From Eubacteriales bacterium (lineage in GTDB: Bacteria > Bacillota > Clostridia > Saccharofermentanales > UBA5734), in NCBI GenBank assembly GCA_028685755.1, contig JAQUDJ010000006.1, forward strand, positions 1 to 64,000: a stretch of 64,000 nt of DNA, read 5' to 3'. The translations under genes and the position numbers were made by a program. The notes under the pieces were generated by a model. That model saw nothing but the letters and a program-made list of their open reading frames with translations, was not told where the DNA came from and did not search any database. Below, in pieces: positions 7,867 through 23,490 of the stretch. Each line of letters starts with the position of its first letter. Position 1 is the first letter of the stretch.

Positions 7867-8460
7867 ATGATAAAAACAACGAAAATGTTAACTGCCGAAC
7901 TTAAAGAATATGTTAATACTACGACTAAGATTCGTCAGCTTATAAAAAACAAAGAAGTTTTTCCCATTGTCAGAGGGCTTTTTGAGACAGATGCTCATAT
8001 ACCCGGGCATTATTTAGCTCCGATTATTTATGGGCCGTCCTACTTGTCTTTTGAGTTCGCACTAGCATTTTACGACCTCATTCCTGAAGCTGTTTATAGT
8101 TACACATCAGCAACCTTTGAAAAGCGCCGGTCGAAGCAATACAATACGCCTTTTGGTCGATTTACTTATCAGGATGTGGCGAGTGACGCCTATCCCGTTG
8201 GGATTGTGCGACATGTTGAAAATGGATACAGTTTTCAAATTGCTTCTCCGGAAAAAGCGCTATGTGACGAACTCTATATAAAGCCGCCACTTGGAAATCG
8301 CGCTGAGCTTGAGCAGCTTTTATATGAGGATTTGCGGATAGAGCCAGATGATTTCGCTCTATTAAATAGAAATGATCTCTTAGCTATATCCGCGCACTAC
8401 CACACGCGGAATCACAAATTGCTGCAAGTGTATGTCAAAAGGATGATAAAAAATGGATAA
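7867..8460 (+). CDS. AbiEi-family antitoxin (type IV toxin-antitoxin)
   Basis: LAPIIYGPSYLSFEFALAFYDLIPE and SPEKALCDELY resemble AbiEi antitoxins; coupled to an AbiEii gene by an 8-nt overlap. Confidence 0.8.
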   Translation: MIKTTKMLTAELKEYVNTTTKIRQLIKNKEVFPIVRGLFETDAHIPGHYLAPIIYGPSYLSFEFALAFYDLIPEAVYSYTSATFEKRRSKQYNTPFGRFTYQDVASDAYPVGIVRHVENGYSFQIASPEKALCDELYIKPPLGNRAELEQLLYEDLRIEPDDFALLNRNDLLAISAHYHTRNHKLLQVYVKRMIKNG

Positions 8461-9319
8461 GATTATTGAACAAATGCTTGAGCACTATCCTATTGAAACG
8501 CTTTTAGACCAAAAAAATAGCATTAAGGAAATTATCCAAGAAATTGTTCTATGTGGGCTTAGTCGAGCGAACTTTTTTAATCAAGCTGCTTTTTATGGCG
8601 GGACAGCACTAAGAATTTTTTATGGACTTGATAGATTTTCAGAAGATCTTGATTTTTCTTTAAAAGTATCTGCCCCTTCATTTTCATTAACGAAATATTT
8701 GCCAACTCTCGAAAAGGAGTTGCGCGCTTACGGTCTTCATTTCAAAGTAGAAACCAAGGAAAAATCCGTTGAGTCATCTATCCAATCGGCTTTTCTCAAA
8801 GGAAGCACAAAGGAACATCTACTGATGTTTTATGCGAATGAATTGTCTAAAGGTTCAGTTGGCCAAAATGAATTGATTAAAGTAAAATTTGAAGTGGACA
8901 CAAACCCACCGGAACACGCCACTTTTGAAACAAAATATAGATTGCTTCCCATACCTTATGAAGTCACACTTTATGATATGTCATCTCTTTTTGCCGGGAA
9001 GATTCACGCAGTCATTTGTAGAGGTTGGAAAAACAGAGTAAAGGGCAGAGATCTTTATGATTTTGTGTTCTATCTTACAAAAGGCACTGCAGTGAATCTC
9101 AATTATCTTGTTGCTCGATTAAGCCAAACCAACACGATTTCAGCGGAAGAAACGCTCACAATAGAAGATGTTAAGCAATTACTCTACACGAGATTTCAAA
9201 ATATTGATTACGATCAAGCAAAACAAGACGTTTCGCAGTTTATCAAAAATCCCGGGGCGCTTGATTTATGGGGTACATCTTTTTTTAGCACAATCACTGA
9301 GTCACTTAAGGCTATCTAA
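8453..9319 (+). CDS. AbiEii/AbiGii-family nucleotidyltransferase toxin
   Basis: FYGGTALRIFYGLDRFSEDLDFSLK nucleotidyltransferase motif and LFAGKIHAVICRGWKNRVKGRDLYDF. Confidence 0.9.
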   Translation: MDKIIEQMLEHYPIETLLDQKNSIKEIIQEIVLCGLSRANFFNQAAFYGGTALRIFYGLDRFSEDLDFSLKVSAPSFSLTKYLPTLEKELRAYGLHFKVETKEKSVESSIQSAFLKGSTKEHLLMFYANELSKGSVGQNELIKVKFEVDTNPPEHATFETKYRLLPIPYEVTLYDMSSLFAGKIHAVICRGWKNRVKGRDLYDFVFYLTKGTAVNLNYLVARLSQTNTISAEETLTIEDVKQLLYTRFQNIDYDQAKQDVSQFIKNPGALDLWGTSFFSTITESLKAI

Positions 9320-12513: not shown

Positions 12514-14337
12514 TCAAACGCGAATGTTGTCTAGGTAAATGAGGCCGCGGTTGTTGGGGTCGGTGAGGATGAATTTAAGCCGAATGATTTGGGCTAGGTC
12601 GAGGTCATTGCGGAGGGTGTCGAGGTCGAACGTGATGGTTTGCCAGCGGAGTGCGGGGACGATGCGTTGGGCTTCGGTCGTGTATTCGCGGGCACCGGGC
12701 GCAGCAATCGCATAGAGATTGAGTTTGATGGTCTTTTCGACGCGATCTGGATTGAAAATATCGACGAGGAGTTGGTTTGCATGGCTCAAATTGAGGGGTG
12801 GAAAGTCCTCGCGCCGATCTATTAGCGGGCCAAATGTGAAGGCGGACGGACCAGTTTCGGGTTGACCACTGCCAGTAATCGTTTGACCTGCAGTCGCCTG
12901 ATAGGTGATTTTCAGAGCGGCTTCACCTTCTGATTTATTAGCCTTTTCACGGCTGATGCTCATTTGACCGGCAAAAACTTGCCACTGTGATGGGTCATCC
13001 GCATGGACCCATTCACGCGGCAGGCTATAAACGGCAGGTTGTTGATCGGAGCGAAATGGGACGACGGGTAGCTGGTCTTTACTAATCACATTGCCACAGT
13101 GATTGTCGGAAAAACCATAGGTCACGCCGAGGGGATTAGGGATCGCATCGTGCCAGACCATGACGCGCACACCATACAACACACGCGCCATGGCTTCATG
13201 ATAAATTCGATCGGGACCACAAACGGCAAAACCGCGAACACGCGTATCGTCGCCGGTCAAACGTAGCCCTTCGCCTGCATGACTGAAGGAAATCATCATC
13301 TTGCCACCGACAAGCTCAATTGATTCGCATTCGGGCGCTGAATGGGGTGCTTTACGCTGGTACAACAGACCGAGACAAACGGTGCGCAAGCGGTATGCGA
13401 TCATTGCCAAATGATTGCTGGCAACAGTGTTGGAGACGGGTACGAGAGCAGTCGGTGCTGCGAGATGATGGGCGCAATAAGACAGATTCTCATTTGCCAT
13501 CGTCAATGCAGTTGCATTTTTTTGGTTGATAAAATGCGTCGGATGTAAAAGCATCAAAAACGCGGCTGGCTTGCTTTCGATAGGCAACAAGCGCGCCCGG
13601 AGTTGTTCTGCGAGTTTAATAATTTCAGTGGCGTTTGTTGTTTCGCCTAGATCCTTTTGACTACCAGACCAAACGATACCGCGCAGACAAAAGTGGTGCA
13701 ACGGATCGAGCAGTCGTGCGGCTTGGCCTTTTTTATTGTCGGGTTGCCAGTCGCGAATTTTGCGGCCGGGCAGCAACACTTGGATCAGCCCAATCGGCAT
13801 TCGCAGTTCGAGAATCAGTTCGCGCCCAAACATCAGGCCGAGCGCACTTTTGGACAACAGTTCGGTCGGCTGGTCAGCCGCATGCCAGCAATTTTCTGGA
13901 TCACGTCGTGCTAAATCTAATAAACGGAGATATGGAATACTGGTATGATCTGACGCAAGTTGAGCTGTCGAATCGGCCAATGGGATACTTAAGGTTGAAT
14001 CGCCGATCAGTAAATACACTTCACCTACCAGCAAGTGGGTCAAGCGCAGGGTGCGTTCGCTGTCGGAAATTAACAGCTCAATGGGATCAAAAGATGCTTT
14101 AAGAGCTGGTAAATCGAACTGAAAACGGCCATTTTTATCACTTTTTAGCGCCGCTGTATAAATCACGCCATAATTTGGATCGAGCGGTGATACGGCATGT
14201 TTATCGAAAGGGGTGCGAATCAGCTCAAGCGAAAGCTCAAGATTGGCGTCAGTCAGTCCAGACAGGCGCGTTTTGGCCTGCTGTTGGATAACCATTCCGG
14301 ACGTAAATTGTGGCGGTAAAGTGATCCATGCTGACAT
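12514..14337 (-). CDS. Divergent sialate O-acetylesterase-like (SGNH/SASA) protein with C-terminal jelly-roll/CBM-like region
   Basis: N-terminal LPPQFTSGMVIQQQAKTRLSG, VGEVYLLIGDSTLSIPL (compare GEVWLCSGQSNM), FGRELILELRMPIGLIQ; C-terminal ITFDLDTL...IIRLKFILTDPNNRGLIYLDNIRV. Confidence 0.65.
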   Translation of the reverse strand: MSAWITLPPQFTSGMVIQQQAKTRLSGLTDANLELSLELIRTPFDKHAVSPLDPNYGVIYTAALKSDKNGRFQFDLPALKASFDPIELLISDSERTLRLTHLLVGEVYLLIGDSTLSIPLADSTAQLASDHTSIPYLRLLDLARRDPENCWHAADQPTELLSKSALGLMFGRELILELRMPIGLIQVLLPGRKIRDWQPDNKKGQAARLLDPLHHFCLRGIVWSGSQKDLGETTNATEIIKLAEQLRARLLPIESKPAAFLMLLHPTHFINQKNATALTMANENLSYCAHHLAAPTALVPVSNTVASNHLAMIAYRLRTVCLGLLYQRKAPHSAPECESIELVGGKMMISFSHAGEGLRLTGDDTRVRGFAVCGPDRIYHEAMARVLYGVRVMVWHDAIPNPLGVTYGFSDNHCGNVISKDQLPVVPFRSDQQPAVYSLPREWVHADDPSQWQVFAGQMSISREKANKSEGEAALKITYQATAGQTITGSGQPETGPSAFTFGPLIDRREDFPPLNLSHANQLLVDIFNPDRVEKTIKLNLYAIAAPGAREYTTEAQRIVPALRWQTITFDLDTLRNDLDLAQIIRLKFILTDPNNRGLIYLDNIRV

Positions 14338-14463: not shown

Positions 14464-16380
14464 TTATTCCGATTTCTTGATCAATTGGACTTGGCGAATT
14501 TTGGCTTGTGCGGCTTGTTTGACGAGCTTGGCGACACCATCAGTCGTCCAATCAACGGCATTCGGATATTCTGATACAACTGAATTGGGGCTTGCAGCAG
14601 CAGGGGTATAAATCGTCAATAATTGTCCGCAATGGACTAAGTGATGATAGGGGGCCTCGATACGTATCCGATCTTGGGTCGAAACGGCCATCCGGGCTGG
14701 TAAACTAAATCCGGCACTATAGCGTTTGCCATCAGTGACCCCCGCAATTTTGCCAAATCGAGTCCGATCAGCCGTGATCAATTCACGGGCGATCCACTCC
14801 TCCTGACCGGCTGACAGCGAAATTTTGACCCCGTGGCGTTCTGCCGCTTCTTCGACAAAATCGCGCATCATCGTCACAATTTCGAGCCCGAGGCGAGTAG
14901 CATCTTCGCGCTGACCGTGATTGCGGCCCACGAGCGACGTCAGGGTCTCCGAAAGGCCGACAAAATTGACACTTAATTGTTCGTTAGCGATGATTTCGGC
15001 CATTGTTTCATTGGGGAAAAAGGGTTTTTGAGTATTGTCTTGCACATGGCTGACAACAAACGGAAAATTGCGGCGACGGATTGAAATCAATGCAGAGTGG
15101 CGTTCGAGCAAGGAGCCAATTGCCAATTCAAGTTGGTTCTCGAGGCGGTGGTTGAATAAGTTGAGATCATTGCGCGCTAAAATAGCACAACGGGGTAAGT
15201 TGATGGTCACCCGCGCGAGCGATAAATAGTCGGGATCAGCCATCGCAAATTGCGGGGTGCCATGGGCTGCGCAGCATTCACACGCTTTCAGGAATAGATC
15301 GTAATTAGGGTCCCCAGGTGAAAGATTGACCCCGTCTGCGAGGAGAAAAAGTTGACGAGGGGCTGGTAAATGCCCATTCTGACCAGGGCCTACACGCGTC
15401 GCATGCAAAATTTCTTGAGTCACTAAACGGGCATCGTCAGAGGTTTCCAGACCATATTGAATGCTCAAAGGTGTGCGGTGTGGCGGCGTGCAGAGATTAT
15501 TCGTTTGCCAATGCTTGAGCAGTGACGCCATCGCCTGGCGGGTGGCTGTTACAGTCTCGACAGCTGCGAGCTCGGTTGCTTTTGCAATGGCCAAGTCCGT
15601 CGTTAGTGCTGGCAAAGTGCTAAACAGATCCAAATATTTTTGATATAGGTTCGCACGGGTCGCTTGTACACCGTCAGCCATCGCCCGGTCAAAATGGGCC
15701 AAGGTCGGACAACCGCTAATTTCATTTTGGGCCCTGGTAACGGTTGTTGCAGCAAAGTCGGCATAGGAACGGATATCGCCAGATTCACGGTCCGCCGCGT
15801 GACCACCAACGAATTCGCCAGCAAATTGCTTTTTGAGATCAATGGGGAAGTCCGAAAACGTCAGCGCATAATATTCCAAGTCATGTAAGAACAGATCACG
15901 GTTTAAATGGGCTTGGCTGACCTCAGGTCGCAGCAGATATAAAATATTGTAAGATTGCGCGCCGGTCAGACCATATTGCAGTAAAATCTCGTTCGAATTG
16001 GTCGCAATATCACTGTCTTCTGATTCGAGGGGGTTCATCGCGTGAAAACTTTGCATCAGGTGGGTTTTCATTTCACGGACTCGCGTGCGTTCAGCGCGGT
16101 AGATAATATAGCGTTTAGCTGTTTCTGGGTAGCCATTTTCCATCAAAACATGTTCGACAAGATCTTGTATCTGCTCAATCGTCGGCCGACTGTTGCCGGC
16201 ATCGTCGATTCGGTCTGCGACTTGCGACGAAATATTCATGCTGATCTGGCTTTGAGATCGATTGGGGTCGCGGGTATTGATTTCTTGCGATGCATCAAGG
16301 GCTTTGTGAATCGCGTTTGCGATCTTTTCAATGTTAAAAACAGCTTCCCGACCATCACGTTTAATGACTCTGGTTATCAT
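14464..16380 (-). CDS. NrdD-like protein with ATP-cone; no recognisable glycyl-radical/zinc C-terminus
   Basis: N-terminal ATP-cone MITRVIKRDGREAVFNIEKIANAIHKAL; class III RNR-like NGYPETAKRYIIYRAERTRVREMK, LLRPEVSQAHLNRDLFLHDLEYYALTF, NEISGCPTLAHFDRAMADGV, GDPNYDLFLKACECCA, SVNFVGLSETLTSLVG, RIRIEAPYHHLVHCG. Confidence 0.8.
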   Translation of the reverse strand: MITRVIKRDGREAVFNIEKIANAIHKALDASQEINTRDPNRSQSQISMNISSQVADRIDDAGNSRPTIEQIQDLVEHVLMENGYPETAKRYIIYRAERTRVREMKTHLMQSFHAMNPLESEDSDIATNSNEILLQYGLTGAQSYNILYLLRPEVSQAHLNRDLFLHDLEYYALTFSDFPIDLKKQFAGEFVGGHAADRESGDIRSYADFAATTVTRAQNEISGCPTLAHFDRAMADGVQATRANLYQKYLDLFSTLPALTTDLAIAKATELAAVETVTATRQAMASLLKHWQTNNLCTPPHRTPLSIQYGLETSDDARLVTQEILHATRVGPGQNGHLPAPRQLFLLADGVNLSPGDPNYDLFLKACECCAAHGTPQFAMADPDYLSLARVTINLPRCAILARNDLNLFNHRLENQLELAIGSLLERHSALISIRRRNFPFVVSHVQDNTQKPFFPNETMAEIIANEQLSVNFVGLSETLTSLVGRNHGQREDATRLGLEIVTMMRDFVEEAAERHGVKISLSAGQEEWIARELITADRTRFGKIAGVTDGKRYSAGFSLPARMAVSTQDRIRIEAPYHHLVHCGQLLTIYTPAAASPNSVVSEYPNAVDWTTDGVAKLVKQAAQAKIRQVQLIKKSE

Positions 16381-16460: not shown

Positions 16461-17543
16461 TCAACGGGTCTGACGTATTAGTTCATACAATCCGAGTTTC
16501 GTAAAGCCACCAAATGTTATTTTGGCATGGTCTGCTTGTAAAGCGGCTTTAAATAGATATTCGAATTCAAGGCGAGTAGCCTCATTGGGTAAACGGACAA
16601 AATCAATCACCACAAGGCCATCCGTATGGCGCAATCGCAGTTGTCGTGCAATTTCGACTGCGGCTAATTGATTCGTTTTAAAGCGCAATTGTATATTATC
16701 GGAAGCTTGCGCTTTGCCGGTATTAACATCGATCGCAAGAAGGGCTTCAGTTTGGTCCCAGACGATACTTCCGCCATTTTTCAACAACACACGGCGTTTA
16801 CTAACGTCGCGCGCAAGGTCACTGACTCGGTGAATGGCCCGCAAATCAAAGGTTCCGGCCTGCAAGCGCAATTTGGCACGTTGTTCTGGCCAACGTGCTG
16901 TTAGCCAGACATCCACGGCTTGAAAAAGCTCAAGATCATCGAGTTGAATGGATTGGATTTCGGGGGTCAGCCAATCCATCAGCGCAGCGACATGGGGCTC
17001 GCGCAATCTGGAAATCAGACGTGGTACAGACCCTCCGGCTTGGGCGTCTGTCTCAGCAAGCGCGCGTTGTTGCAGCAACAAGGTGCGTTCTGTATCGACG
17101 AGAGTCGTGCGTTGCACATCAGGCAAAAGCTTGGTTTTACTACGTAAAAAGCCCGCCTCGGTCGATGGATCGAGCACAAGAAAAAGGCCAGGATACTGAA
17201 TTTTGGTCGTCAAAAGGTGACCTTTGGTTGGTGCGTGGTCACTCGTTTCGGAGTTCTTCTTCCCGCCCGTCAAGCGACGAATCTGGACGAGTATCGTTTG
17301 ACCAGCCTTGCAATTGACCGGCGCTTCCTTTAGGGGTAGCAACGCGTTTTCCGGCTGGCCGATCTCAACAAAGACGCGTTGCAAGCCACGGTCGACCGAT
17401 TCGATTCGGCCGAGAATGATGTCTTGATTCGCGGCTGCTGTTGCTGAAATTGTGGGCAACCATTCAATCGCCACGCCTTCCTCGAGCAAGATCGCCTCCG
17501 GCAAGCCGTCCGCGTTTTTCAGCAACAGGATGTCAGATTTCAT
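16461..17543 (-). CDS. Ribonuclease E/G family protein (short, no Zn-link)
   Basis: S1-like GRIESVDRGLQRVFVEIGQPENALLPL; catalytic LLAIDVNTGKAQ and GLVVIDFVRLP; ends KLGLYELIRQTR*. Confidence 0.88.
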   Translation of the reverse strand: MKSDILLLKNADGLPEAILLEEGVAIEWLPTISATAAANQDIILGRIESVDRGLQRVFVEIGQPENALLPLKEAPVNCKAGQTILVQIRRLTGGKKNSETSDHAPTKGHLLTTKIQYPGLFLVLDPSTEAGFLRSKTKLLPDVQRTTLVDTERTLLLQQRALAETDAQAGGSVPRLISRLREPHVAALMDWLTPEIQSIQLDDLELFQAVDVWLTARWPEQRAKLRLQAGTFDLRAIHRVSDLARDVSKRRVLLKNGGSIVWDQTEALLAIDVNTGKAQASDNIQLRFKTNQLAAVEIARQLRLRHTDGLVVIDFVRLPNEATRLEFEYLFKAALQADHAKITFGGFTKLGLYELIRQTR

Positions 17544-18334
17544 TGTGGCAATCGAAGCGGCGAGGCATAGCCACTAGGATCGATAGTGGAATGAATCAGC
17601 AAACTTAAGCGGGTGATTGCACAGTCGGCTGCAGCGATGGCATCAAGACCACCATAGACAACGAGTGCGTCGAGGAACAAATCGGGGCGCAGGTTAGCCG
17701 AGCTCCCCGCTTTGACGCGGATCACAATTTCAGATTCGGACATGAGCCGCACGTCAAGAATGAGTGCGCGAATTTCAACTTGTAAGGTGCGCCCTTTGCT
17801 AAATTTTTCGACGATCAAAGGCTGGGCAACTGGAATCCGGCGCCAGGCAGCCGCGAGACCAGCGATCGACAGGCGATAGTCTGCGGCTTGCACCAGACTC
17901 ATCAAGCTGATTTTGCTCGGTAGGATCGGAGCGCCGGCGAGTATTTCAAAGCCAATCGGCAAATTATCGTTGAGTTTTTTGATCATAAGGTCTGGTGCGA
18001 CTGGTTCAATGAGTTGGATATCGACATAGTCATCTTCCGTTGCGAGTCCGACACCGATGGGTAAAGCGAACGTCATTTGCGGGCGTGGATTAAAGCCCTG
18101 CGACCAATGCACGGGGAGTTTTGCCCGGCGAATCGCTCGTTCAAACGTGCGCATCATATCGAGGTGGGCCAGCCAAATTGCTGGTTCTCGGCGGGCAAAT
18201 CGCAGGCGGATTTCGTAATAAGCAAGCGGTGTATTTCCTGGGTTTGCGGTGTTAGCTTGCACGGCCTGTTCGGGTGGCGCGGCCTGTTCGAGTTGCGCGA
18301 CCTGTTCGTCATTCAAAGCAGACACCTCCCCCAA
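17540..18334 (-). CDS. TIGR03936-type radical SAM-associated protein (DUF2344)
   Basis: IRLRFARREPAIWLAHLDMMRTFERAIRRAKLPVHWSQGFNPRPQMTFALPIGVG; overlaps the TIGR03960-type gene. Confidence 0.9.
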   Translation of the reverse strand: MGEVSALNDEQVAQLEQAAPPEQAVQANTANPGNTPLAYYEIRLRFARREPAIWLAHLDMMRTFERAIRRAKLPVHWSQGFNPRPQMTFALPIGVGLATEDDYVDIQLIEPVAPDLMIKKLNDNLPIGFEILAGAPILPSKISLMSLVQAADYRLSIAGLAAAWRRIPVAQPLIVEKFSKGRTLQVEIRALILDVRLMSESEIVIRVKAGSSANLRPDLFLDALVVYGGLDAIAAADCAITRLSLLIHSTIDPSGYASPLRLPQ

Positions 18335-20183
18335 AGCATTGAGCCCCGCAAGCAGAGCATTGCTCGCGACATTCCGGCGTCGTCGCCGCTTGCATGGCTT
18401 GTTGATATTCCGTCCACAAGAAATCCGTGGTCACACCGCAATCGATATGTGACCAGGGGAAAACCTCGTCGCGGGTCCGTTCACGGCGGGCATAGAAATT
18501 TGGATCGAGACCAGCATCTGCGATGCATTGCATCCAGAGATCGTATTTAAACTGATCATCCCACGCGTCAAAGCGAGCCCCACCGTGGAAAGCTGCAAGA
18601 ATCACGGCCCCGAGGCGGCGATCACCACGGGCGAGCACACCTTCGAGATAAGAGATTTTGGGCTCATGCCACTTGTATTTGACCGATCGGGTCATCCGCA
18701 ACTGATCGCGCAGGTGCGATTGATGTGATCGCATCGTGTCTAAATCGGCCTGGGCACACCACTGAAAAGGAGTAAAGGGCTTGGGGATGAACATCGCGGT
18801 GCTGATCGCAAGTTCAAGGCGGCGTGGACGTTCAAAGCGCGGTAGTTTGTTGTACCGGTCTTCGATCGCCCGGGCAAGTTTGGCGATCCCATCGACATCT
18901 TCCATCGTTTCAGTCGGCAAGCCGAGCATGAAGTAGAGCTTAGCTCCGCTCCATCCGCCACGCAGAGCGAGCTCCATTGCCGTGAGCAGGTTTTCTTCCG
19001 TGATGTTTTTGTTCACCACGTCACGGAGACGCTGCGTGCCAGCTTCCGGCGCGAAAGTTAATCCACCTTTACGGGTGCTCGAAGCCTTCTGCATCAATTC
19101 AAGCGAGAAGTTGTCGAGGCGCAGGGACGGCAAGGACAAACTCGTATGATTGGGGGTCAATTCGCATAATAAACTATCCGTCAATTCCGAGAGTTTGGAA
19201 TAGTCAGATGTCGACAACGAAAGCATGCCGACTTCGTCATAACCGGTCGTTTTTTCCAACTCGAGGGCCTGACCGAGCAGTTTTTCTGGAGATTTTTCGC
19301 GCACAGGGCGATAGACAATTCCAGCTTGGCAAAAGCGGCAGCCGCGCGTACACCCGCGGAATAATTCGAGGAAGATCCGGTCATGGACGATTTCGGTATT
19401 TGGAACGATACTGTCAGTCGGGAAATAGGCCTGATCGAGATCTAAAATGATCCGTTTTTTGATTGTCGCTGGCACGCCAGGGCGATTAGGTGTGATCGTC
19501 GCAATCGTTCCATCGGATTGATATGCGACATCGTAAAATGACGGCACATAAACGCCTTCGAGCTGGGCAACGGCGAGCAAAAACTGTTCGCGAGTCCGGC
19601 TTGGGCCACCTTTTTTCCAATTTAGCCAGACATCGGTGATTTCTTGGAGGACTTCTTCCCCCTCACCAATGACAACCAGGTCAAAAACGGCGGCCATGGG
19701 TTCGATATTGTAAACAACGGGTCCCCCTGCCATGACGAACGGATCGTCAAGGGTGCGGTCACAGGTCAAAAGTGGCACGTTTCCGAGGTCAAGCATATCG
19801 AGAACCGACGTGAAAGCAAGCTCGTATTGCAACGTAAAACCGAGCAGGTCGAATTCACGAAGGGGCGTGCGGGATTCTTGTGAAAACAATGGGATTTGCT
19901 CGGCACGCAATGTGGCGGCCATATCAACCCACGGCGCAAAAGCACGTTCGCACCACACGTCTTCCCGCTCATTGAGCATATGATAGATGATTCGCAAGGC
20001 CAAATTAGACATGCCGATTTCGTAAGTGTCTGGAAAACAGAAGGCAAATCGCAAGAAAGGCCGGAGCGCCTGTTCGGCAACATCCGGCACAATCTTGGTT
20101 ACGCTGTTCCATTCCCCACCAGTATAACGGGCCGGTTTCTCAACCGACGCCAACACGTGTCGGGGCAAATTCACAGTTGTCAT
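18309..20183 (-). CDS. TIGR03960-type B12-binding radical SAM protein
   Basis: FLELFRGCTRGCRFCQAGIVYRPVREKSPE (CxxxCxxC), FAPEAGTQRLRDVVNK, adjacent DUF2344 gene. Confidence 0.93.
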   Translation of the reverse strand: MTTVNLPRHVLASVEKPARYTGGEWNSVTKIVPDVAEQALRPFLRFAFCFPDTYEIGMSNLALRIIYHMLNEREDVWCERAFAPWVDMAATLRAEQIPLFSQESRTPLREFDLLGFTLQYELAFTSVLDMLDLGNVPLLTCDRTLDDPFVMAGGPVVYNIEPMAAVFDLVVIGEGEEVLQEITDVWLNWKKGGPSRTREQFLLAVAQLEGVYVPSFYDVAYQSDGTIATITPNRPGVPATIKKRIILDLDQAYFPTDSIVPNTEIVHDRIFLELFRGCTRGCRFCQAGIVYRPVREKSPEKLLGQALELEKTTGYDEVGMLSLSTSDYSKLSELTDSLLCELTPNHTSLSLPSLRLDNFSLELMQKASSTRKGGLTFAPEAGTQRLRDVVNKNITEENLLTAMELALRGGWSGAKLYFMLGLPTETMEDVDGIAKLARAIEDRYNKLPRFERPRRLELAISTAMFIPKPFTPFQWCAQADLDTMRSHQSHLRDQLRMTRSVKYKWHEPKISYLEGVLARGDRRLGAVILAAFHGGARFDAWDDQFKYDLWMQCIADAGLDPNFYARRERTRDEVFPWSHIDCGVTTDFLWTEYQQAMQAATTPECREQCSACGAQCFGGGVCFE

Positions 20184-21696: not shown

Positions 21697-23490
21697 TTAG
21701 GTGATATTTTCTAAAGATTGCGAAAAAAGCAAAATCGGCTGCGATCCAGAAAGATCAAACGCCAACAGGCATTGTCCCGCAGGAATGAGACAATCGCAAA
21801 CCGTCGTTTCAATGACTGTGGGATCGATAGTCGCGATCCGTGACAAGACTGCCTGGAGCTTGATGGTATCTGCAAACAAAAAGTCTTCGAGCCGAAAACG
21901 ATTTTGCCGCGGATAATCCCGATGCATTCGTTCGCGACCGAGTTGTTTGCGGGTCAGACGCACCGGATCACTACTCAGATCGAGCGGATCTAAAAAAAGC
22001 GGCTGATCCTTCGCGCCTTGCAACAGATAGTCAAGTTTGAGCCGGGCATGAAAATCAAGATAAGTTAAAGCGGGCAATCGCGCCCGAGCAAACTGGTCGA
22101 GAAATTCGGTCCGGGCCGAAGGACTCGCTTTTAGGTCAAACCAACCCGCTTGGCGATTAACTGCTGCGAGTTCGGCAAAAAACGCAAAGGGGGAAGACCA
22201 TTGCGCCAGTAGGGCTTTCAAGCTATGGGGGTAGCGACCACTGTTGTGATAGAGTTCTAATACCGCTTCGAGATCTTTTAAACAAGCCAGATCGGCAAAA
22301 GTCATTTGATCGGAAGCGAGGATTTCGTAAGGAGGTTCTGCCGACCACTTAAAACCGAGTGATTTTGCTTGGTCAGCCATGGGGCTACCCGGTAGGACTT
22401 TCAAAAAGCCGAGCTGCAATTGTTCTGGGTCTAAGCTAAAAACATCGTCAAATGCGTTGGCAAATTGTTGCGGCGTTTCACCTGGCAAACCGGCGATCAA
22501 GTCGAGATGGAGATGGATTGCCGTTTGGCGTTTAAGGGCACGAACATTATCGGCCAAGCGCACCCAATCGCAAGGACGCCGAATCGCTTTTAAGACTTCT
22601 GGCGTCGTTGTTTGGACCCCGATTTCAAACTGAAATAAGCCGGCAGGGGCCTTTTCAAGGATGTTGATGGCATCGTGTGTCAAGCGATCTGCCATGATTT
22701 CAAAGTGAAAATTCGTCCGAAAAGACTGGTCATGACGCTTGATCAGCCAGCGCCAAATGTCTAATGCCCGCTCGGATTGAATGTTAAACGTGCGGTCAAC
22801 GAGCTTGATCTGACGAACATCAGCTGCAATCAGTCGTTCAAAAGCGATCGTTGTATGGCTTAGATCGAGTAAACGCACGGAGCGGTCGAGCGAGGACAAA
22901 CAGTACGTGCAGCCATAGGGGCAGCCACGCGATGTTTCAAAATAGAGTAACCGGTCTTTTAACGACAGCAATTCGTCATCGGTATAGGGGAAGGGCCATT
23001 TTTCTGCCGGTAAAAGCGGAGCCATCGGGTTGCTTTGAATCTCACCAGCAGGATTGCGCCAGACGACATTTGGCGTTTGTGGGGTCAAGCCATGCAAGAG
23101 TAAATCGGCAAACGCGACCTCACCCTCCCCGGCGAGAATTGCATCCACTGCGGGTACGGACTTTAGGATCAATCTGGCATCCTGACTAGCTTCTGGCCCA
23201 CCCCAAATGATCGTCGCCTCCGGGCGGATTTTTTTGAGTTCATCGGTTAGTCGTTCGGTCAAACGGCGATTCCAGATATAGCAGGAAAACGCGTAAACAT
23301 CAGCATTGACAGCAAAAAGCCGCATCAATAGCTGTTGCGGCAGATCGTTGATCGTCCATTCACAAAGGCTGATATTGTCGCGCGGAAAGCCCTGCAAACA
23401 GGCGTATTCGCGCAGTTGGCGAATCGCCAGGCTCGTATGGGCAAATTGGGCATTGAGCGCGATGAGGGCGACTTTGGGGCTGGCCATCAC
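21697..23490 (-). CDS. B12-binding domain radical SAM protein with C-terminal DUF4080-like region
   Basis: YFETSRGCPYGCTYCLSSLD (CxxxCxxC) and N-terminal cobalamin-binding-like region. Confidence 0.88.
   Translation of the reverse strand: MMASPKVALIALNAQFAHTSLAIRQLREYACLQGFPRDNISLCEWTINDLPQQLLMRLFAVNADVYAFSCYIWNRRLTERLTDELKKIRPEATIIWGGPEASQDARLILKSVPAVDAILAGEGEVAFADLLLHGLTPQTPNVVWRNPAGEIQSNPMAPLLPAEKWPFPYTDDELLSLKDRLLYFETSRGCPYGCTYCLSSLDRSVRLLDLSHTTIAFERLIAADVRQIKLVDRTFNIQSERALDIWRWLIKRHDQSFRTNFHFEIMADRLTHDAINILEKAPAGLFQFEIGVQTTTPEVLKAIRRPCDWVRLADNVRALKRQTAIHLHLDLIAGLPGETPQQFANAFDDVFSLDPEQLQLGFLKVLPGSPMADQAKSLGFKWSAEPPYEILASDQMTFADLACLKDLEAVLELYHNSGRYPHSLKALLAQWSSPFAFFAELAAVNRQAGWFDLKASPSARTEFLDQFARARLPALTYLDFHARLKLDYLLQGAKDQPLFLDPLDLSSDPVRLTRKQLGRERMHRDYPRQNRFRLEDFLFADTIKLQAVLSRIATIDPTVIETTVCDCLIPAGQCLLAFDLSGSQPILLFSQSLENIT

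Follow-up and report, generated by a model that had tools for sequence, protein, structure and literature searches.

Class III ribonucleotide reductases (NrdD), the oxygen-sensitive anaerobic enzymes that make DNA precursors, are defined by a glycyl radical and a thiyl Cys, and their catalysis requires both the C-terminal glycyl radical and the active-site Cys; ribonucleotide reductases are themselves essential. What, then, does an nrdD-like gene do when its frame is intact and its product appears to have lost both? This question was raised by a gene in the window, i.e., the whole 64,000-nucleotide stretch of an Eubacteriales bacterium contig that was analyzed here. The most that can be claimed from sequence comparison is that this gene, for which we coined the name nrdDs, appears to encode a maintained, catalytically dead NrdD whose ATP-cone is now its most constrained part. 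The gene and the relevant parts of its product are as follows:

14464..16380, minus strand: nrdDs, homolog of class III ribonucleotide reductases, almost certainly catalytically dead, 638 aa (intact ORF; Pfam; sub-cut-off NCBIfam scores; AF2 model similar to PcNrdD)
16066..16380, minus strand: ATP-cone, residues 1-105, with K7, R8, D9, R11, Y94, R98 and R102 retained (PF03477; residue table versus PMC11226230)
15847..15852, minus strand: former barrel Cys pair, now D177-F178 (alignment with 28 canonical NrdDs)
15217..15234, minus strand: junction where about 5 residues stand in for a finger loop of 36-45 residues that bears the thiyl-radical Cys (alignment)
14464..14547, minus strand: C-terminus, consisting of a helix, the last strand and the stop; zinc site and glycyl-radical domain absent (DSSP, H613-625 and E630-635)

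The frame, as read from the window sequence, is uninterrupted from its ATG start. Residues 4-99 matched the ATP-cone family PF03477 with 81.6 bits (cut-off 25.8). The NRDD family PF13597 was matched in two pieces that covered only profile positions 18-482 of 562; positions 245-277, which correspond to the finger loop, and 483-562, which correspond to the radical domain, were unmatched. In addition, nrdDs scored below the NCBIfam equivalog cut-offs for NrdD (TIGR02487, 223 bits versus 326; PRK07111, 414 versus 764). PcNrdD and StNrdD were its nearest solved relatives by sequence. An AF2 model of the monomer (pLDDT 85.1, pTM 0.79) retained the succession of barrel strands up to residues 630-635, ending where the radical domain would start. 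The top Foldseek match of this model was PcNrdD, with a TM score by target length of 0.74 for the tetramer chain and of about 0.81, up to 0.82, for core-only chains, and an NrdD-related barrel fold is predicted for nrdDs. The Pfam matches and the model thus confirm the original prediction of an intact 638-aa frame with an ATP-cone and a class III fold. The protein is not of the NrdR type: it begins with the cone and continues into an NrdD barrel, whereas NrdR has a zinc ribbon followed by an ATP-cone and is barrel-less.

The same prediction held that the Cys loop, zinc site and glycyl-radical motif were missing, and this was borne out when the window protein and four orthologs, described below, were aligned with 28 canonical NrdDs that were complete or nearly so. 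Between the fifth and sixth barrel strands, these short proteins have 5 residues, compared to 36-45 in canonical NrdDs. The finger-loop Cys (MGCRT/S) was present in 28/28 canonical and 0/5 short proteins, and the finger-loop Met was also gone from all five. The zinc Cys residues showed the same distribution, occurring in every canonical NrdD and in none of the short proteins. The radical Gly was found in 23 of the 28 canonical sequences, with a gap at this column in the other five, and was absent from 5/5 short proteins. Losses extended beyond those originally listed. The two barrel Cys columns, which are Cys in 28/28 and 22/28 canonical NrdDs, never contain Cys in short proteins (TCCQIDL is changed to FSDFPIDL), and the first His of HxHD is changed in all five. 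In the substrate-phosphate loop ATPAEGL, T and P are lost in 5/5 short proteins and Glu in 4/5. The NxN flap motif was not recognizable in the short proteins, in a stretch where the alignment is poor. Specificity-site and loop-2 positions are also altered, and therefore the short protein should not be regarded as a normal NrdD dimer that has merely lost catalysis. In PcNrdD, the elements lost from nrdDs are catalytic or substrate-binding (PMC11226230). Because the finger loop, barrel Cys, zinc site, glycyl-radical domain and nrdG neighbor are gone, no ribonucleotide reduction is expected; judged by established chemistry, loss of this activity is near certain, and it may be regarded as excluded for practical purposes.

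The short form was found in one genus of uncultured Clostridia. It was detected in all five genomes of the genus in our sample (G000, which contains the window, and G001-G004), all of them apparently metagenome-assembled, at the same locus and in an open frame. Identity to the window protein is 50-52% for the other four proteins, which share 79-86% with one another. A scan of genome contigs with the single protein returned no relatives, and an alignment-based scan recovered these four, which are the kind of homologs lacking the glycyl domain that the original prediction had proposed to look for. No other contiguous short form was found among 188 genomes of the order. Among 265 clostridial genomes with an NrdD match, only the window genome had a best match weaker than 1e-90 (1.3e-33), although this sample was judged by the best match per genome and a dead copy beside a normal NrdD could escape. 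Where loci without the MGCR pattern were read, they proved to have a different finger-loop motif, a normal radical domain or both, or to be truncated at a contig end. Relatives found in a search of phage proteins were all below 60% identity.

Other reductase genes of these genomes were also assessed. In genome-wide searches, nrdDs was the sole NrdD in G000 (96.6% complete) and G002; sequence gaps could be the cause of a second NrdD missing from these two genomes. Thus, no canonical nrdDG was found elsewhere in G000, and the earlier observation that the window lacks NrdG fits the genome-wide result, as TIGR02491 gave nothing above cut-off in G000 or G002 and activase matches were sub-cut-off only. 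Away from this locus, G001 and G003 each encode a further NrdD of normal type together with NrdG, and G004 has a contig-cut normal NrdD. A weak PF13597 match in G003 (G003:C14:19620-20243), in a 507-aa frame adjoining an activase-like frame, is probably a different glycyl-radical enzyme. Both G000 and G002 contain a class II B12-dependent NrdJ; the G000 NrdJ, a 1059-aa frame, has no ATP-cone, and the gene beside it is, as we read its sequence, presumably a cobalamin adenosyltransferase. ATP-cones in G000 were detected in nrdDs and in a 158-residue frame of NrdR size, and nowhere else. No NrdR box was found upstream of nrdDs with up to 4 mismatches allowed, and therefore there is no sign that nrdDs belongs to the reductase regulon. 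An imperfect NrdR-box-like site, ATACAATATCTAGTAT, with 3 mismatches, lies approximately 95 bases before the nrdJ start (L033, G000:C32).

The genomic context of nrdDs suggests how it arose. Gene order is common to the genus: radical SAM, DUF2344, RNase E/G, nrdDs, a 607-aa protein and a valS-like gene (which we take to be such from its sequence). In the window, the neighbors are:

18309..20183, minus strand: upstream radical SAM gene with a Radical_SAM_N2 domain (PF19864, PF04055; synteny)
17540..18334, minus strand: upstream DUF2344 gene (PF10105; synteny)
16461..17543, minus strand: upstream RNase E/G family gene, 360 aa (PF10150, 148.5 bits; synteny in G001-G004)
12514..14337, minus strand: next gene downstream, encoding a conserved protein of 607 aa with no match in Pfam (adjoins nrdDs in the genus and nrdDG in G013)

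In G013, from a sister genus in the same family, the matching locus contains NrdG and a complete NrdD of 807 aa, and nrdD-nrdG is followed by a homolog of the 607-aa gene and then by the valS-like gene. The G013 NrdD is 42% identical to the window protein and is sister to the short family in the tree, with support of 100/99, although branches are long. Comparison of gene neighborhoods showed that nrdG is gone from beside nrdDs in the genus. Because the sister genus has a complete nrdD-nrdG at the nrdDs locus, the simplest history suggested by these sequences is that nrdDs is the original nrdD converted in place, with loss of nrdG, rather than a spare duplicate. The proposed paralog status is therefore only partly upheld: locus and tree point to a converted original, whereas three of the five genomes do carry a second, normal NrdD.

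Several other features of the region were observed. The RNase E/G family protein has approximately 49% identity to the window copy within the genus, compared to 82-91% for its neighbors. The 607-aa protein evolves as fast as nrdDs, and its AF2 model from six sequences was poor (pLDDT 49.5). The window also encodes an AbiEii-type nucleotidyltransferase (8453-9319, plus strand; PF08843), the toxin component of a type IV toxin-antitoxin/abortive-infection system, and a B12-binding radical SAM protein with DUF4080 (21697-23490, minus strand).

The ATP-cone presents a different picture from the catalytic elements. Each of the seven cone residues tested is present in every one of the five short proteins, and their counterparts in PcNrdD are K7, R8, D9, R11, Y83, R87 and R91 (PMC11226230); in the alignment, the R11 and R98 positions are variable among canonical NrdDs. 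Pairwise dN/dS (Nei-Gojobori) for nrdDs was 0.16-0.19 among the four closer orthologs, and was not computable between these and the window copy because synonymous sites were saturated. Housekeeping neighbors had lower values (0.02-0.09). Within the short family, dN/dS was 0.03-0.08 for the cone and about 0.14-0.21 for the barrel. The cone/barrel dN ratio, computed on shared columns, was 0.08-0.52 for pairs within the short family, where no upper 95% bootstrap bound exceeded 0.71. Ten pairs of canonical NrdDs gave 0.8-2.3, several of them with wide bootstrap intervals. In other words, the cone of working NrdDs mostly keeps pace with the barrel or outruns it by a factor of up to 2.3, and that of the short family changes 2-12 times more slowly. 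One close canonical pair (G047c-G055c) runs opposite, with a point estimate of 0.22 that is based on very few changes. Diverged pairs thus show the shift in selection clearly, close pairs less so. In the barrel, 76 positions, including C369, C370 and C398, are invariant in the short family and rare in 14 related canonical NrdDs; C369 and C398 are also present in the G013 NrdD.

These observations can be used to weigh several explanations. That an assembly error or frameshift masks a normal enzyme might be suspected from the metagenomic origin of the related genomes, but this is refuted: five separate assemblies agree on the form, the finger-loop deletion lies within an uninterrupted frame, and all frames downstream of nrdDs were searched without finding a radical-domain remnant or a hidden normal C-terminus. 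Indeed, nrdDs is not a frameshift artifact because four further metagenome-assembled genomes of the genus share it. Effectively refuted as well is the idea, raised in the original prediction, that nrdDs is part of a split class III reductase whose radical domain is encoded separately. Split class II reductases of Pseudomonas aeruginosa offer a precedent (PMC4520616); however, no free radical domain was found genome-wide in G000 or G002 (best E values of 0.5 and 0.6), and because the finger-loop Cys, barrel Cys, first HxHD His and substrate-phosphate loop are lost as well, all these elements would need to be supplied by another protein. Regulation of a normal NrdD through mixed dimers is improbable. 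The normal NrdDs of G001 and G003, with NrdG, and the contig-cut one of G004 would provide partners, but G000 and G002 keep the short protein and show no normal NrdD.

A functionless relic heading for loss would account for the disappearance of catalytic parts and nrdG and for faster evolution than in most neighbors. Yet the frame has stayed open in all five genomes at approximately 50% protein identity, with synonymous sites saturated relative to the window copy, and the dN/dS values, particularly those of the cone, largely refute decay, leaving it very little credence. The main rival, which we regard as possible although unlikely, is that the barrel has taken on a new chemistry that the ATP-cone switches on and off. 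A folded barrel is predicted, and purifying selection of moderate strength acts on it; this selection, together with the 76 family-specific invariant positions of the barrel, could indicate a new activity and counts against a sensor role. On the other hand, barrel evolution outpaces that of the cone 2-12-fold, and the two largest deletions remove what makes the barrel catalytic. We favor the reading that nrdDs is a catalytically dead pseudo-reductase, converted in place and retained as a sensor of ATP/dATP or a scaffold for regulation, with a probability of roughly 0.55. Counting against it are the altered specificity-site and loop-2 residues, the missing NrdR box, a dN/dS above that of housekeeping neighbors and the small sample of five genomes. 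A sensor or scaffold role is the most likely function, and the original suggestion of a non-catalytic, possibly nucleotide-sensing cone protein is supported by the apparent loss of catalysis, the intact cone residues and the strong constraint on the cone.

In PcNrdD and StNrdD, the cones undergo large displacements, or the oligomeric state changes, in response to ATP and dATP (PMC11226230, PMC12662201). By analogy with these enzymes, the nrdDs cone may bind two ATP or two dATP molecules, and a switch from ATP to dATP might shift the cone position or the oligomeric state. The pseudo-reductase could then act on a partner as a sensor of dNTP status or as a scaffold. In G000 and G002, this partner would apparently not be another NrdD, and candidates are the cone-less NrdJ, NrdR and proteins encoded in the gene cluster around nrdDs. 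A more specific version is speculative and rather unlikely: nrdDs would read the ratio of ATP to dATP and, in trans, regulate either the cone-less class II NrdJ or the reductase regulon. If true, NrdJ, without an activity switch of its own, would get a separately encoded one.

If the favored reading is correct, nrdDs would be a bacterial pseudo-reductase, genus-wide and maintained without a glycyl radical or thiyl Cys. It would also be a natural case of nucleotide sensing uncoupled from catalysis, in which selection has moved from the barrel to the ATP-cone. For annotation, anaerobic dNTP synthesis should not be assumed from an NrdD-type match in such genomes.

In the open-access literature, we found no description of an NrdD without a glycyl radical or of a bacterial pseudo-reductase, i.e., no described bacterial counterpart; inactive reductase homologs are known from betaherpesviruses. 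Among known systems, NrdDs with an ATP-cone (PcNrdD, PDB 8P23 and relatives; StNrdD, 9D3X) share common ancestry, the barrel fold and the seven cone residues with nrdDs, which differs in lacking the finger loop, thiyl Cys, barrel Cys, zinc site, glycyl-radical domain and nrdG neighbor and in its incomplete HxHD. The G013 NrdD has MGCRT, CCQIDL, HxHD, zinc Cys and RITGY and is accompanied by NrdG; in nrdDs, HxHD is incomplete and the others are absent. The betaherpesvirus large-subunit (R1) homologs UL45 and M45 have likewise lost catalysis and taken a regulatory role (PMC5469499, PMC11772975); however, they are viral, of class I type and act on host signaling, and are a precedent of kind only. 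In Leeuwenhoekiella blandensis NrdB (5OLK), an ATP-cone regulates the reductase from a different subunit (PMC5794259), although the enzyme there is an active class I reductase whose radical-generating subunit carries the cone. NrdR resembles the proposed role in that its ATP-cone senses nucleotides instead of regulating its own catalysis (PMC9110341, PMC12176259), but it has a zinc ribbon and no barrel, and the NrdR-sized frame with an ATP-cone in G000 is distinct from nrdDs.
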